Both the position numbers and the translations under genes were made by a program. Positions 1,355-5,235 of a stretch of DNA of 5,235 nucleotides are shown here, piece after piece. Under the pieces are notes generated by a model. The model worked only from the letters and a program-made list of their open reading frames with translations, was not told the origin of the DNA and did no database searches. Within the stretch, counting starts at the first letter, position 1. Every line of letters starts with the position of its first letter. Origin of the DNA: Desulfuromonadales bacterium (GTDB lineage Bacteria; Desulfobacterota; Desulfuromonadia; Desulfuromonadales; BM103); NCBI GenBank assembly GCA_029859485.1, contig JAOUDB010000218.1:1-5235 (forward strand), given 5' to 3'.

Positions 1355-1846
1355 TTGAGCATAAAACTAGAAAAGATTCTGGTCGCTAAAGATTTGAGCA
1401 AAGAGTCTTCTAACGTGGTCCGCTATGCCTTGGAGTTGGCCCGTAGATTTCATGCACAGGTTTATGTGCTGCACGTTATGCCAACGGTCGATGCTTCAGT
1501 CCTGAATATGGTAGCTCTGACCATGGGAGCGGATAAGCTGGCAAAATTCAATGCGACAAACGAAGCAGATTTGGCAGAAAAAACACGCGAGCAGTTGCGT
1601 AACATCATTGCCAGTGAAACTGAACTGATGGAGGAAGAAATTGCTCACCCTCCGAAGGTAGAGGTTCATCATGGTGATGCGGCCCCGGTGATCCTCAGCG
1701 TCGCTGATCGTCTGGATGTCGATATGATTATTCTTGGCAGCCATAGCAAAGGCAAGCTGCATTACGCATTCTTGGGCAGTGTTGCAGAAAAGATTTTGCG
1801 TAAAACGCATCGGACTATTACGATTGTTCCCCCTGTAGACAGCTGA
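1355..1846 (+). CDS. Universal stress protein, UspA family, linked to TRAP transporter
   Basis: This 163-residue single-domain Usp fold protein has the usual family length, is cytoplasmic and is probably dimeric. The N-terminal strand KILVAKDLS (residues 7-15) leads into a helix, VVRYALELARRF. The strand VEVHHGD (102-108) and the core MIILGSHSKG (124-133) then lead to FLGSVAEKILRK. The nucleotide motif of ATP-binding members is G-x2-G-x9-G-S/T. Here it reads G128-SH-S131-x9-G141-S142, so the second glycine is serine, although G133 is nearby; ATP binding is plausible but not certain. The start is TTG, supported by an AAGGAGG site. Usp genes are known next to TRAP transporters: TeaD beside TeaABC in Halomonas binds ATP and modulates ectoine uptake. 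By analogy this protein may regulate the permease encoded just upstream, probably on the same transcript. That role is inferred from position. Confidence 0.93.
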   Translation: MSIKLEKILVAKDLSKESSNVVRYALELARRFHAQVYVLHVMPTVDASVLNMVALTMGADKLAKFNATNEADLAEKTREQLRNIIASETELMEEEIAHPPKVEVHHGDAAPVILSVADRLDVDMIILGSHSKGKLHYAFLGSVAEKILRKTHRTITIVPPVDS

Positions 1847-1974: not shown

Positions 1975-2613
1975 ATGAACTATGATAGTTGGTTACTCTT
2001 TACTTCGATTGCACTCATCGCCACGATTACGCCGGGCCCGGCAATCCTGCTTGTGACAACCCACAGTGTTTCCTTTGGTACAAAGTATTCCATCGCGACC
2101 ATGGCCGGCAATGTGACTGGACTGTTCATTATGTCACTTTTGTCCGTGATGGGGCTGAGCGCAATAATCCTTCATTCTGTGCCGATTTTTTTACTGGTCA
2201 AAGGGGTTGGTGCCGGCTACCTGATTTTTTTAGGTGCGAAGCTTTGGAGCCGCGGTTTTGGCCTGGATGCAATTCGTTCGGCAGTAGAAGGTAACGAACA
2301 GTCACGTCCGAGGATCATTAAACTTTACTTCAACGGTTTGCTTGTGGCCCTCAGTAACCCCAAGGCGATTGCTTTCACTACAGCACTTTTCCCGCAGTTT
2401 ATTCATCCTGATTATCCTATGGCACAGCAGTTTTGTATCTTGATTGCCACTTTCATGTTCCTGTCATTTGTCTGTCTTCTGGCTTATGCTGTTATGGCTG
2501 CAGAGACGAAGAATCGTTCCACACGGATTAAGCTACCAGGTCTTATGAGTAAGGTTTTTGGCGCTGCGTTTATCGGCTCCGGTGTCTTTCTCGCCACAGC
2601 GACGCAGAAGTAA
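1975..2613 (+). CDS. LysE/RhtB-family amino-acid exporter
   Basis: This 212-residue inner-membrane protein has normal LysE/RhtB length and about six hydrophobic segments (near residues 5-28, 40-62, 66-88, 115-137, 150-175, 188-209). Family marks are TPGPA at 19-23 in the first helix, GYLIFLGAKLW at 81-91, a charged cytoplasmic loop at about 92-115, then the conserved NPKA (128-131) and FPQFI (139-143). Relatives export amino acids such as lysine, threonine, homoserine or leucine, usually to relieve excess; the substrate cannot be read from sequence. The ATG at 1975 is preceded by a modest AGGGA at 1959-1963, eleven bases away, and AAGGA further up at 1953. It stands alone between a hairpin region and a terminator and converges with the aminotransferase gene, so it may have its own promoter, though I see no convincing one. 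Confidence 0.92.
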   Translation: MNYDSWLLFTSIALIATITPGPAILLVTTHSVSFGTKYSIATMAGNVTGLFIMSLLSVMGLSAIILHSVPIFLLVKGVGAGYLIFLGAKLWSRGFGLDAIRSAVEGNEQSRPRIIKLYFNGLLVALSNPKAIAFTTALFPQFIHPDYPMAQQFCILIATFMFLSFVCLLAYAVMAAETKNRSTRIKLPGLMSKVFGAAFIGSGVFLATATQK

Positions 2614-2714: not shown

Positions 2715-4025
2715 TCATGTTTTCTTAACCATCCATTCACAAAGTTTGTCTGTTGCCTCAATAACTTTAAAACAGCAATCCTCCGGAAAATTGTCGGGGA
2801 GTGGTTCGTGCATAGGGTAGCGCTCCGCACAGGCAAGAGCCTTGGCACCATCAAAGTCGACGAGAGCCATCCGGGCTGTCATTTCGTGGTCCGGTCGTCC
2901 GAATGCTGTGCCGGGCAGAATTGCTACACCCGTATCTTCCAGGATCTGCTCGCACATCTCAGTCGAAGTGTTTATTCCATGTAAGGGCAGCCGATCTTTT
3001 AAAGGCGAGAAATCAGGGAAAATGTAAAAGGCCCCCTGTGGAGGTGCGACAATTGCCCCGGCCTCTGTCAAGCGGAGACAAACTGCTGCACAGAGAGATT
3101 TCAGAATTCGTCGTGAGTGGCTCAGGTACTCTTCGATACGTGTCCCGCCACGGAAGGCCCTGACTGCTGCGTACTGAATCGGTGCACTGGTCGCAGTAAA
3201 GGTTTCGCTTGAGACCGCGGCCATCCCTTCAAGCAGCCAATCAAGCGCTGCCGGGAAGGCAAAGGTGCCCAGCCGCCAGCCGCCAGCACCACACCATTTA
3301 CTCAGGCCGCTGCTTATAATGGTTCCTTCCGGATAGTGTCGGGCTATCGAAACGTGTGCACCCTCGAAGTCGAGTTCTCCGTAAATCTCATCAGACAGAA
3401 TGATGATTTTATACGTTCTGGCCACCTCTGCAAGAGCTTTGAGTTCGCCATCGGTGTAGCTGCACCCCGTCGGATTGTTGGGGTAGTTGAGGATGACAAT
3501 TCGTGGTTTAGACGGATCTTTCTGGCAATGTTTATCCAACTCTTCAGGAGTCAGAAGCCAACGATTTTCACTACGGGTTGGCAGCCAGAAAACATGTCGG
3601 CCTATGATATGGGCCTGAGGGGCATAAGAAACCCAACTCGGCGTAGGAATGACCAGATCTCCGTAGTAGACCAACTGGAGGATGAACATGAGCTCCTTCG
3701 AGCCCGGGCCAACCAGAATGTTGTCGGGATTAAAGTTGAGGCCCTGAGTCCGCTGATAGTAGCCGGCAACCGCATGCTGCAGGGCCGGCAACCCACGCAC
3801 GGGCAGATAATCCTTCTGGTGTGCGTTGGCCTGGAGTTCTTCGACAACAGGCAGGGGCACAGGGAAGGGTGATTGCCCCAAACCCATTTTATAGATCTGG
3901 CGCCCTTCAGCTAAAAGCTGATTGCTACGTTCGTTGATGCCAAGGGTTGCTGAAACGGGTAATCCCCGCACGTTCAAGTTGACGTGTCTCTCAAAGTAGT
4001 CTGGTTTGTTCATCTGCTTTCTCAT
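2715..4025 (-). CDS. PLP-dependent class I/II aminotransferase, substrate unknown
   Basis: This fold-type I aminotransferase transfers an amino group between an amino acid and a 2-oxo acid with pyridoxal phosphate, in the cytoplasm. Counting from the ATG at 4025 (436 residues), GPGSKE at 106-111 binds the cofactor phosphate. NYPNNPTG (180-187) holds the conserved Asn, and SDEIY (211-215) holds the Asp and Tyr that contact the pyridine ring. SSGLSK ends at K243, the Schiff-base lysine, and GWRLG holds R251. R385 in TARMALVDF fits the substrate-carboxylate arginine. All catalytic residues are present, so the gene looks functional. The start is uncertain. GTG at 4040 has no ribosome binding site. 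ATG at 4025 has AAGGA only three bases ahead, and ATG at 4013 has it thirteen or more bases ahead; the protein pattern (MNKPDYF) slightly favours 4013. It follows a two-gene remnant and the GntR regulator, probably on one transcript, so its substrate is probably tied to that former pathway. Confidence 0.93.
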   Translation of the reverse strand: MRKQMNKPDYFERHVNLNVRGLPVSATLGINERSNQLLAEGRQIYKMGLGQSPFPVPLPVVEELQANAHQKDYLPVRGLPALQHAVAGYYQRTQGLNFNPDNILVGPGSKELMFILQLVYYGDLVIPTPSWVSYAPQAHIIGRHVFWLPTRSENRWLLTPEELDKHCQKDPSKPRIVILNYPNNPTGCSYTDGELKALAEVARTYKIIILSDEIYGELDFEGAHVSIARHYPEGTIISSGLSKWCGAGGWRLGTFAFPAALDWLLEGMAAVSSETFTATSAPIQYAAVRAFRGGTRIEEYLSHSRRILKSLCAAVCLRLTEAGAIVAPPQGAFYIFPDFSPLKDRLPLHGINTSTEMCEQILEDTGVAILPGTAFGRPDHEMTARMALVDFDGAKALACAERYPMHEPLPDNFPEDCCFKVIEATDKLCEWMVKKT

Positions 4026-4046
4026 ATTTCCTTGTCTCACCTGATG

Positions 4047-4181
4047 TTATATCGACAGGTACTTACGATGTTCAAGAGGGGTGACATGGGTTCGGTGTTC
4101 TTCCCAGTCGGCCATTTTAAGGCTGAGGTAGTTGTTAAAAATCGAGGGCCCCAGAAGCTCTTTGAGGAAGTCACTCGGTTC
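4047..4181 (-). pseudogene. C-terminal fragment of a glutamine-synthetase-family gene
   Basis: From about 4181 to the TAA at 4047-4049 this frame reads 44 residues containing LLGPSIFNNYLSLKMADW, then EEHRTHVTPLEHRKYLSI. The order LG..hF..hh..K..-W...R..V...E...YL is the typical C-terminal end of glutamine synthetases and relatives such as gamma-glutamylpolyamine synthetase (PuuA). A full family member is roughly 440 residues, so about nine tenths are missing, including all catalytic beta strands. There is no own start. The fragment begins where the KamA-like frame stops making sense, one frame away. Its stop lies 21 bases before the ATG at 4025 of the aminotransferase, normal operon spacing, so the ancestral gene was probably directly upstream of it. 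The family call comes from memory of the motif; the exact subfamily is open. Confidence 0.7.
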
Positions 4182-4432
4182 TCTTTCCAGGTCAGGTAGT
4201 CCTGCACGCCGAAACGATTTTCCGTCTCGCTCATCGAGGGGATGACCTGTTTTCGAATCGGGCATTTGGGGTCATCTCGATCCATAAGGGCTTCAACATA
4301 GGGGGTCGTCCCCCATGTGGTCTTCAGGTTTTCCAAAGCCTAGCGCTCTGAGTCAGACAGGTTGATAAACTGTTCAAGCTTTTCAATCGTGTTGACGCTG
4401 TCTCTCATCTGTTGCTGCCATTCTGTTTCCAT
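4175..4432 (-). pseudogene. N-terminal fragment of a KamA-family (lysine/glutamate 2,3-aminomutase-like) gene with in-frame TAG
   Basis: An ATG at 4432 with GAGAGG six bases ahead (4439-4444) opens 30 codons, METEWQQQMRD through LSDSER. A TAG at 4342-4340 interrupts, and the same frame resumes as ALENLKTTWGTTPYVEALMD, then RDDPKCPIRKQVIPS and DYLTWKENR (to 4175). The block TPY...hMD.DDP.CPIRKQ.IP is characteristic of the region just before the radical SAM core in lysine and glutamate 2,3-aminomutases, which move an amino group from C2 to C3. The CxxxCxxC cluster motif, SAM and PLP sites would come later and are absent. The frame passes into unrelated residues after WKENR, where a glutamine-synthetase-like tail begins in another frame. 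The gene is therefore dead through both a nonsense codon and truncation. The start lies 23 bases after the regulator stop, so it was the second gene of that operon. Whether it was the lysine or glutamate enzyme cannot be settled; the RKQ.IP and WKENR style leans to glutamate. Confidence 0.78.
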
Positions 4433-4455
4433 TGGTTGCCTCTCTCTTTTAGTCG

Positions 4456-5100
4456 TTATGATTCCTGTTCGATAATCTTGTCACCGGTTTCTATGTAGTG
4501 TTGGCGGATCAACTGTTCAAGCTTTACGGGGTCCTTATCACGAATAGTTGTGACGATTTTCAGGTGTCTGTCACGGATCTCTTCAGGTGTATAGACCTTG
4601 CCCCAGTGTTTATAAAAGAGCAGGTGTAGCTTGAGACTGAGCTGTTCCGTAAAAAGAACGATCTGAGCGTTTGTGCAGTGGCAGAACAGCTCTTCATGAA
4701 ATTCCTGACCGAGATCTATCAGTGCTTTATGCTCACCCTTTTCGGCAAACAATTTCATCTTATGTGCCATTTCTTCAAGGCGGCTAAGATCTTCCTCAGT
4801 AAAATTATTGATGCCTTGCATAACTGCGAAACCTTCGAGGACGCCGCGGGCCATGTAGCTTTCGATAATTTCTTTGGGGGAGAGTGATGCGACAAAATTG
4901 CCGACCTGTGGGCGGTACTCAAGAAGATCTCTTCTGACCATGTCGGCCAGAGCTTCACGGATCGGTGCGCGACTTATCCCAAGCTCTTTGGAAAGGTGAC
5001 TCTCAAGAATCTTTTCACCGGCACGGAAGCGATTCTCCCGTATGCCGTTATAAATATATCGGATAACGTAGTCTTTGTAGGTAGAGCGTTCTATGGGCAT
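4456..5100 (-). CDS. GntR-family transcriptional regulator, FadR subfamily (FCD domain)
   Basis: This 214-residue regulator is of typical length. A winged helix-turn-helix covers about residues 8-72: the GntR pattern runs from ILESHLSKELGISRAPIREAL (31-51), with recognition helix SRAPIREAL, to the wing QVGNFV (65-70). A helical FCD ligand-binding domain (about 76-210) follows. FCD proteins often bind a metal through Asp and three His. H135 (EFHEEL), H179 (RDRHLKI) and H201 (RQHYIE) fit, but the position four before H135, normally Asp in a DxxFH pattern, is Gly131, with D129 nearby. The ATG at 5100 has GAGGGAG six bases upstream (5107-5113). FadR-type regulators usually respond to organic acids or amino-acid-related ligands and repress neighbouring catabolic genes. 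Here a palindrome overlaps the gene's own -10, suggesting autorepression of the regulator-remnant-aminotransferase operon. Confidence 0.93.
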   Translation of the reverse strand: MPIERSTYKDYVIRYIYNGIRENRFRAGEKILESHLSKELGISRAPIREALADMVRRDLLEYRPQVGNFVASLSPKEIIESYMARGVLEGFAVMQGINNFTEEDLSRLEEMAHKMKLFAEKGEHKALIDLGQEFHEELFCHCTNAQIVLFTEQLSLKLHLLFYKHWGKVYTPEEIRDRHLKIVTTIRDKDPVKLEQLIRQHYIETGDKIIEQES

Positions 5101-5132
5101 TCTTGTCTCCCTCTTCCCAATGTCGTCTGTCG

Positions 5133-5144
5133 AATGTCGACATT
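5133..5144. promoter_or_regulatory. Perfect 12-base palindrome, probable GntR operator
   Basis: AATGTCGACATT is fully self-complementary and sits 32 bases before the regulator start, overlapping the predicted -10 by three bases. FadR-subfamily operators commonly have a TxGTxxxACxA-type core, which TGTCGACA resembles. The half-site AATGTCG recurs at 5119-5125 and a shorter TGTCG at 5128-5132, in direct orientation, which may be secondary contacts. Binding by the adjacent regulator is inferred. Confidence 0.6.
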
Positions 5145-5169
5145 ATGCGTGGGTGAGCAAATATTGCAA
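5142..5169 (-). promoter_or_regulatory. Sigma-70-like promoter for the GntR operon
   Basis: On the - strand, TTGCAA (5169-5164; four of six to consensus) and CATAAT (5147-5142; five of six) are separated by 16 bases. Transcription would start near 5135, inside the palindrome, giving a leader of about 35 bases before the regulator ATG. The promoter lies just downstream of a terminator, as expected for the start of a new unit. Confidence 0.55.
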
Positions 5170-5175
5170 TAAAAA

Positions 5176-5208
5176 AGCGCCAGAAGCCAGAGTAGATTTT
5201 CTGACGCT
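5176..5208 (-). terminator. Rho-independent terminator of a - strand gene beyond the right edge
   Basis: Read on the - strand, AGCGTCAGAA (5208-5199) pairs with TTCTGGCGCT (5185-5176), ten pairs with one G-U, and is followed by a run of T (5176-5171, then ATT). A T-run at 5210-5215 also follows it on the + strand, where one pair becomes a C-A mismatch, so it may work both ways. The gene it ends is outside the window to the right, or the + strand side is simply insulated. Confidence 0.8.
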
Positions 5209-5235
5209 ATTTTTTGAAAGTTACCAGGTCAAGCG

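Follow-up and report, generated by a model that had tools for sequence, protein, structure and literature searches.

Remnants of a KamA-like aminomutase gene and a glutamine-synthetase-like gene, most likely joined by one deletion, in a Desulfuromonadales draft genome

The stretch of DNA that we analysed (the window, 5,235 nucleotides) comprises contig C473 in full and comes from the draft genome of a Desulfuromonadales bacterium (G000; 3.45 Mb, 637 contigs, completeness 91.55%, contamination 6.24%). On its minus strand, the remnant of a gene for a KamA-like radical SAM aminomutase (4176..4432) is followed directly by the remnant of a glutamine-synthetase-like (GS-like) gene (4047..4175). The kamA frame opens with an ATG at 4432 and runs to 4176, comprises the first 85 codons plus 2 nt of the gene, and reads METEWQQQMRDSV...MDRDDPKCPIRKQVIPS...DYLTWKENR. 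The GS frame, one frame off, runs from 4175 to a TAA ending at 4047, comprises the last 42 codons of 448 plus the stop, and reads SDFLKELLG...ADWEEHRTHVTPLEHRKYLSI. An earlier note, made from the sequence alone, had placed aminomutase-like residues from 4432 to about 4175 and a glutamine-synthetase-type tail, one frame away, from about 4181 to 4047, and the translation bore this out. Comparison with full-length proteins of a genome of the same genus (G007) likewise revealed the similarity to a KamA N-terminus and to a GS C-terminus: the KamA-like protein of G007 matched window positions 4166–4441 with 83% identity (E 7.1e-47), and its GS-like protein matched 4050–4190 with 85% identity (E 2.2e-20).

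Alignment to both G007 genes located the joint at 4176/4175, where the second position of a kamA codon is followed by the first position of a GS codon, with at most 2–3 bp of exactly shared sequence as judged by relatives. The kamA remnant contains an additional lesion that is absent from the earlier note, an in-frame TAG at codon 31 (4342–4340), at a site where relatives and the allele P0001, described below, have sense codons. The radical SAM core and the synthetase body are gone, as had been claimed. The kamA stub ends ahead of the CxxxCxxC cluster motif and of the pyridoxal phosphate and substrate sites, and the GS stub does not hold the catalytic domain, matching just the last 39 positions (306–344 of 344) of the Pfam profile Gln-synt_C at 23.7 bits, with a cut-off of 24. 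No Pfam match was obtained for the open reading frame (ORF) that reads the kamA stub. Because Pfam gave a GS tail below the cut-off and nothing for the kamA stub, the assignment of both stubs rests on relatives and not on profiles. Two other minus-strand frames cross the joint. The first, of 99 codons from a TTG (4037..4336), reads the kamA remnant and then passes through the GS tail out of frame, and we regard it as a mere consequence of the joint; the second, of 72 codons from an ATG (4047..4265), is listed as P0004 and reads kamA out of frame and then the GS tail.

We searched 40 genomes at the DNA level and obtained matches in 14 (the window's own genome being included in both counts). In G007 the gntR, kamA-like (362 codons), GS-like (448 codons) and aminotransferase genes were found full-length and in that order, which is the order that the earlier note had suggested looking for. 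The kamA-like and GS-like genes of G007 are open throughout and lie 43 bp apart. The window matched this locus as two collinear blocks about 2 kb apart, with 76% and 85% identity on the two sides, and the gap between the blocks corresponds to most of the two genes. Counted from the G007 start, 269 of 1089 nt are kept at the kamA stub, and 1218 of 1347 nt of the GS-like gene are lost. With the 43-bp intergenic gap included, the loss amounts to 2,081 bp compared with G007 (2,129 bp compared with G009), in agreement with the deletion of possibly around 2 kb between adjacent genes that had been proposed. Full-length collinear genes thus occupy, in a relative, the place where the window has a broken frame and no catalytic parts. 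Both gene types were also detected in six family genomes beyond G007. They are adjacent in G006 and in G009, in the latter with no aminotransferase alongside; a second GS-like gene sits between them in G015, G019 and G003; and in G010 they lie on two contigs, with the GS-like gene cut by the contig start. The joint pattern was not found in any of 57 further relatives (58 genomes counting the window's own), and none of them retained the short arrangement as a conserved gene; it occurred in near-identical sequence only.

Such near-identical sequence was found in other public sequence. The joint ORF P0004 (72 aa) belongs to a 90% cluster that has 12 members and is found on 125 contigs (the longest 24,527), and since this ORF exists only across the joint, we infer that every one of these contigs carries it. 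Through the 99-aa ORF we found P0001, a protein of 131 aa from one contig of another source (97% identical), whose frame opens at the start of kamA, reads a sense codon at the site of the TAG and crosses the same joint. The kamA stub was compared with 123 proteins (P0004 and P0005 left out), 120 of which were the best 120 of 990 matches, the ranking being by similarity to G007 rather than to the window; among these 123, P0001 alone was near-identical to the stub and agreed with it at 84 of 85 positions, compared with 73 of 85 for the best full-length protein. Because P0001 has the joint and not the TAG, the joint is present in at least two alleles and, as far as these two sequences indicate, the deletion probably preceded the stop. 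A further short protein, P0003, from a 1,349-bp contig, starts with about 67 KamA-like residues and continues with other sequence; it is possibly another wreck or a chimera.

In bacterial genomes, deletion pseudogenes are gene remnants joined by illegitimate recombination. The window shares with them the adjacent gene pair, the stubs of both ends, the out-of-frame joint, the nonsense mutation and the intact neighbours, and differs in nothing of kind; its joint is additionally found in other public sequence. The locus is most likely a two-gene pseudogene (we put the probability at about 0.93), in which the kamA-like gene and the following GS-like gene were cut down by one 2.08-kb deletion and the stubs were joined out of frame. 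The deletion would have reached from codon 90 of kamA to codon 406 of the GS-like gene, as one event in an ancestor of the lineage, presumably through slippage or illegitimate recombination where the two sites shared a very short match. The TAG would have arisen afterwards by drift. A homology-driven deletion between direct repeats was considered and rejected, as the imperfect match at the joint was modest in comparison with random pairs, and we claim no repeat; an 8-bp overlap suggested by the BLAST ends contained a 2-bp gap and vanished in the full alignment.

Several observations weigh against a single deletion in this lineage. The similarity at the break sites is weak and was equalled by 51, 239 and 530 of 5000 random pairs for G007, G009 and G010, respectively. 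At the joint P0001 encodes alanine and the window valine, which makes two separate deletions at the same place conceivable, and the evidence for the joint elsewhere consists of the P0001 protein and the contig count of the P0004 cluster. With 637 contigs and 91.55% completeness, the draft could have an intact copy lying unbinned. Contig C220 of the same genome (L019) repeats window positions 4443–5235 over its first 793 bases at 98.6% identity (11 differences) and represents a second haplotype; it starts 10 bases before reaching the kamA start and is silent on the deletion. When the draft was searched with full-length queries, KamA detected a whole paralogue (73%, contig C540), a distant one (39%, contig C152) and the stub, and the GS-like query gave nothing above 35% (a match on contig C9) besides the stub.

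The fragmentation of the draft, its 6.24% contamination and the overlapping contig C220 would be in keeping with a chimeric assembly error. P0001, from another source, spans the same joint with few residue differences, the P0004 cluster counts 125 contigs, the sequence shared at the joint is far below the word length that assemblers generally use, and the same stub bears a second lesion. We rejected an assembly chimera on the P0001 and P0004 evidence and regard it as scarcely credible. It is also highly improbable that the stub is a working short gene, that is, a truncated or fused peptide under selection. P0001 does keep its frame open through the joint, over 131 aa, and the stub shows no clear increase in divergence. 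Over 84 codons, nonsynonymous divergence (dN) of the kamA stub was 0.071, 0.102 and 0.151 to G007, G009 and G010, and 0.057 (G007–G009), 0.125 and 0.109 among those three, so that no pseudogene-specific rise was seen; the intact gntR, with 0.122 and 0.126 to G007 and G009 versus 0.088, showed an excess similar to that of the stub. A young pseudogene would likewise have an unchanged dN, and the missing rise fits a young event and proves nothing. The kamA frame of the window stops at codon 31, no catalytic part is left, and the short form turned up in near-identical sequence only and not across relatives; on these grounds we disfavoured a functional peptide.

A route in several steps, in which for instance a piece of the locus was acquired from a related strain by recombination and truncated at its edge, instead of one deletion in place, was suggested by the mosaic divergence from G007. 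Synonymous divergence (dS) from G007 was 0.39–0.74 for the aminotransferase, LysE, universal stress protein (Usp) and TRAP genes and about 1.6–2.1, near saturation, for the GS tail, the kamA stub and gntR. Identity to G007 falls from 81–93% to 74–77% inside the aminotransferase gene (window 3800–4013 compared with L020), with dS about threefold apart on the two sides. This step near 3800 is likely a recombination boundary separate from the deletion joint: it lies about 370 bp away from the joint, and the similarly high divergence of both stubs suggests that they lay on one DNA before the joint formed. The arrangement in G017, where gntR directly precedes the aminotransferase gene and kamA and GS of the window kind were not found, would also suit a route in several steps, which we nevertheless consider unlikely. 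The wreck, most likely the result of a single deletion in place, is ordinary, well-supported gene decay, and attention belongs to the intact parent pair.

The genes flanking the remnants are both intact, as the earlier note had stated: a GntR/FCD-family regulator (4456..5100, minus strand) and a class I/II aminotransferase (2715..4013, minus strand; ATG at 4013, the ORF being listed to 4040 from a GTG). The deletion would have brought the aminotransferase gene about 2 kb nearer to gntR. We determined which of the two belongs to the pair in a family set of 22 genomes, the window's own included, with a threshold of at least 60% for the GS-like protein. The GS-like protein was present in 7 genomes and a GntR of the window type in 9, with all 7 among the 9 (Fisher p 2.1e-4, uncorrected for kinship); GntR occurred without the GS-like protein in the window's genome and in G017 only. 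The aminotransferase was present in 8 genomes, in 3 of them at the gntR locus (G000, G007 and G017) and in the other 5 in stretches without gntR, kamA or GS. A close aminotransferase (at least 70%) was found nearby in only 3 of the 63 GS-like loci described below (L085, L101 and L109). On the basis of the family co-occurrence and the locus counts, GntR accompanies the pair, with the aminotransferase as an optional neighbour. The operon of all four genes that the earlier note had assumed therefore holds in part: G007 has the full order, but the aminotransferase, located elsewhere in 5 of 8 family genomes, is no fixed member. Because all 7 family genomes with the GS-like gene have GntR, the GntR of the window is probably orphaned. 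It would be left without a kamA–GS pair to regulate, and its action may be limited to itself and the aminotransferase gene. In G017 (86% complete), gntR lies directly before the aminotransferase gene (L024/L162, 1640–1674), and neither kamA nor GS of the window kind was found in that genome; this may be a separate, clean loss at the corresponding position.

We examined the intact pair at 63 GS-like loci (L085–L147) from named genome records, mostly Desulfobacterota metagenome-assembled genomes and isolates, with a few labelled Chloroflexi, Gemmatimonadota or Spirochaetes. A KamA of the window type was the next ORF at 35 of these loci and lay at most 4 ORFs away at 47. A tblastn search added one more (L098, Pelovirga terrestris), where a match over KamA residues 4–361 ruled out a loss of kamA, so that 48 of the 63 loci are paired. 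Of the 47, 21 have the order kamA–GS and 20 the order GS–kamA; the genes are convergent at 5 loci and divergent at 1. A tandem second GS-like gene was seen at 11 of the 63 loci. For the 15 loci without a nearby KamA, 13 genomes were searched, leaving aside the L096 genome and L147, for which only the GS start is present; 8 of the 13 have such a KamA elsewhere, and in 5 none was found at E 1e-90.

The residues of both enzymes depart from the canonical forms. Aligned with 2a5h, the G007 KamA has Glu for the first and Ala for the second residue of the Asp pair, positions 293 and 330, which we take to bind the lysine side chain. The KamA partners have CE where 2a5h has CD (47 of 47) and Ala-Thr for Asp-Ala (46 of 47, one unmatched). 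The G007 protein scored 283.8 with the KamA family model TIGR00238 (cut-off 199.2) and remained below the NCBIfam equivalog cut-offs for lysine 2,3-aminomutase AblA (TIGR03820; 354.9, cut-off 525.4), glutamate 2,3-aminomutase (TIGR04368; 350.6, cut-off 650) and arginine 2,3-aminomutase (TIGR04468; 368.4, cut-off 600). Its GS-like neighbour scored 344.3 with the type I GlnA model TIGR00653 (cut-off 429.15) and, compared with 8ool, has NRNAFH for NGSGMH and SYKAYIMD for SYKRLVPG in place of the canonical glutamate-site motifs; the altered positions presumably correspond to Gly265 and Arg321 in the glutamate site of GS. The same changes were detected across the 63 loci: NGSGMH is replaced by NR[NS]AFH in 58 and SYKR by SYKA in 61, and the remaining ORFs did not match the pattern.

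What the intact pair makes can be proposed by analogy. In PMC1224877, the glutamine synthetase of Methanohalophilus portucalensis is described as making beta-glutamine; it resembles the pair in being a GS that acts on a beta-amino acid to give a zwitterionic solute, and differs in that the GS-like gene here usually has a KamA-like partner and its product is putative. PMC3543383 describes ablAB, in which a KamA-family aminomutase lies beside an acetyltransferase that finishes a beta-amino-acid solute. The parent pair likewise has a KamA-family aminomutase adjoining a second enzyme, with a GS-like enzyme in place of the acetyltransferase. The parent KamA shares 42% identity with the ablA-like protein of L030, and its score is far below the AblA model cut-off. 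By analogy with both systems, the aminomutase, of a new specificity, would make a beta-amino acid, and the ligase, with its re-arranged substrate pocket, would amidate or ligate it, perhaps to a beta-glutamine-like product. We tentatively suggest, as a reading less likely than not, that in anaerobic Desulfobacterota the pair forms a two-step beta-amino-acid pathway, as yet undescribed, that gives a beta-glutamine-like compatible solute, and that the window lineage would be a natural knock-out of the second step with a paralogue of the first step kept. Against it, KamA occurs without the GS-like gene in 5 of the 12 family genomes with a KamA of at least 70%, the window's own included, and the GS-like gene occurs without a found KamA in 5 genomes. 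A literature search of titles and abstract openings found no description of a KamA-like and GS-like pair. The wreck reveals its joint, the order in which the lesions probably arose (the deletion before the stop) and its occurrence in other sequence, and it points to a KamA-like and GS-like enzyme pair that is often kept together and has non-canonical active-site residues. The window lineage is a natural lineage without the pair, and the product could be sought by comparing the metabolites of carriers and non-carriers.

The plus strand of the window carries a TRAP transporter fused permease gene cut by the contig start (3..1268) and intact genes for Usp (1355..1846) and a LysE-type exporter (1975..2613). 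Beyond its overlap with the window, contig C220 continues into ORFs resembling lpd-sucB-sucA, names that were assigned by eye. At L028 and L030, the same KamA type lies beside a second KamA (41–42%) and an ORF of 281–298 aa, which resemble ablA and ablB, the ablB label being given by eye.
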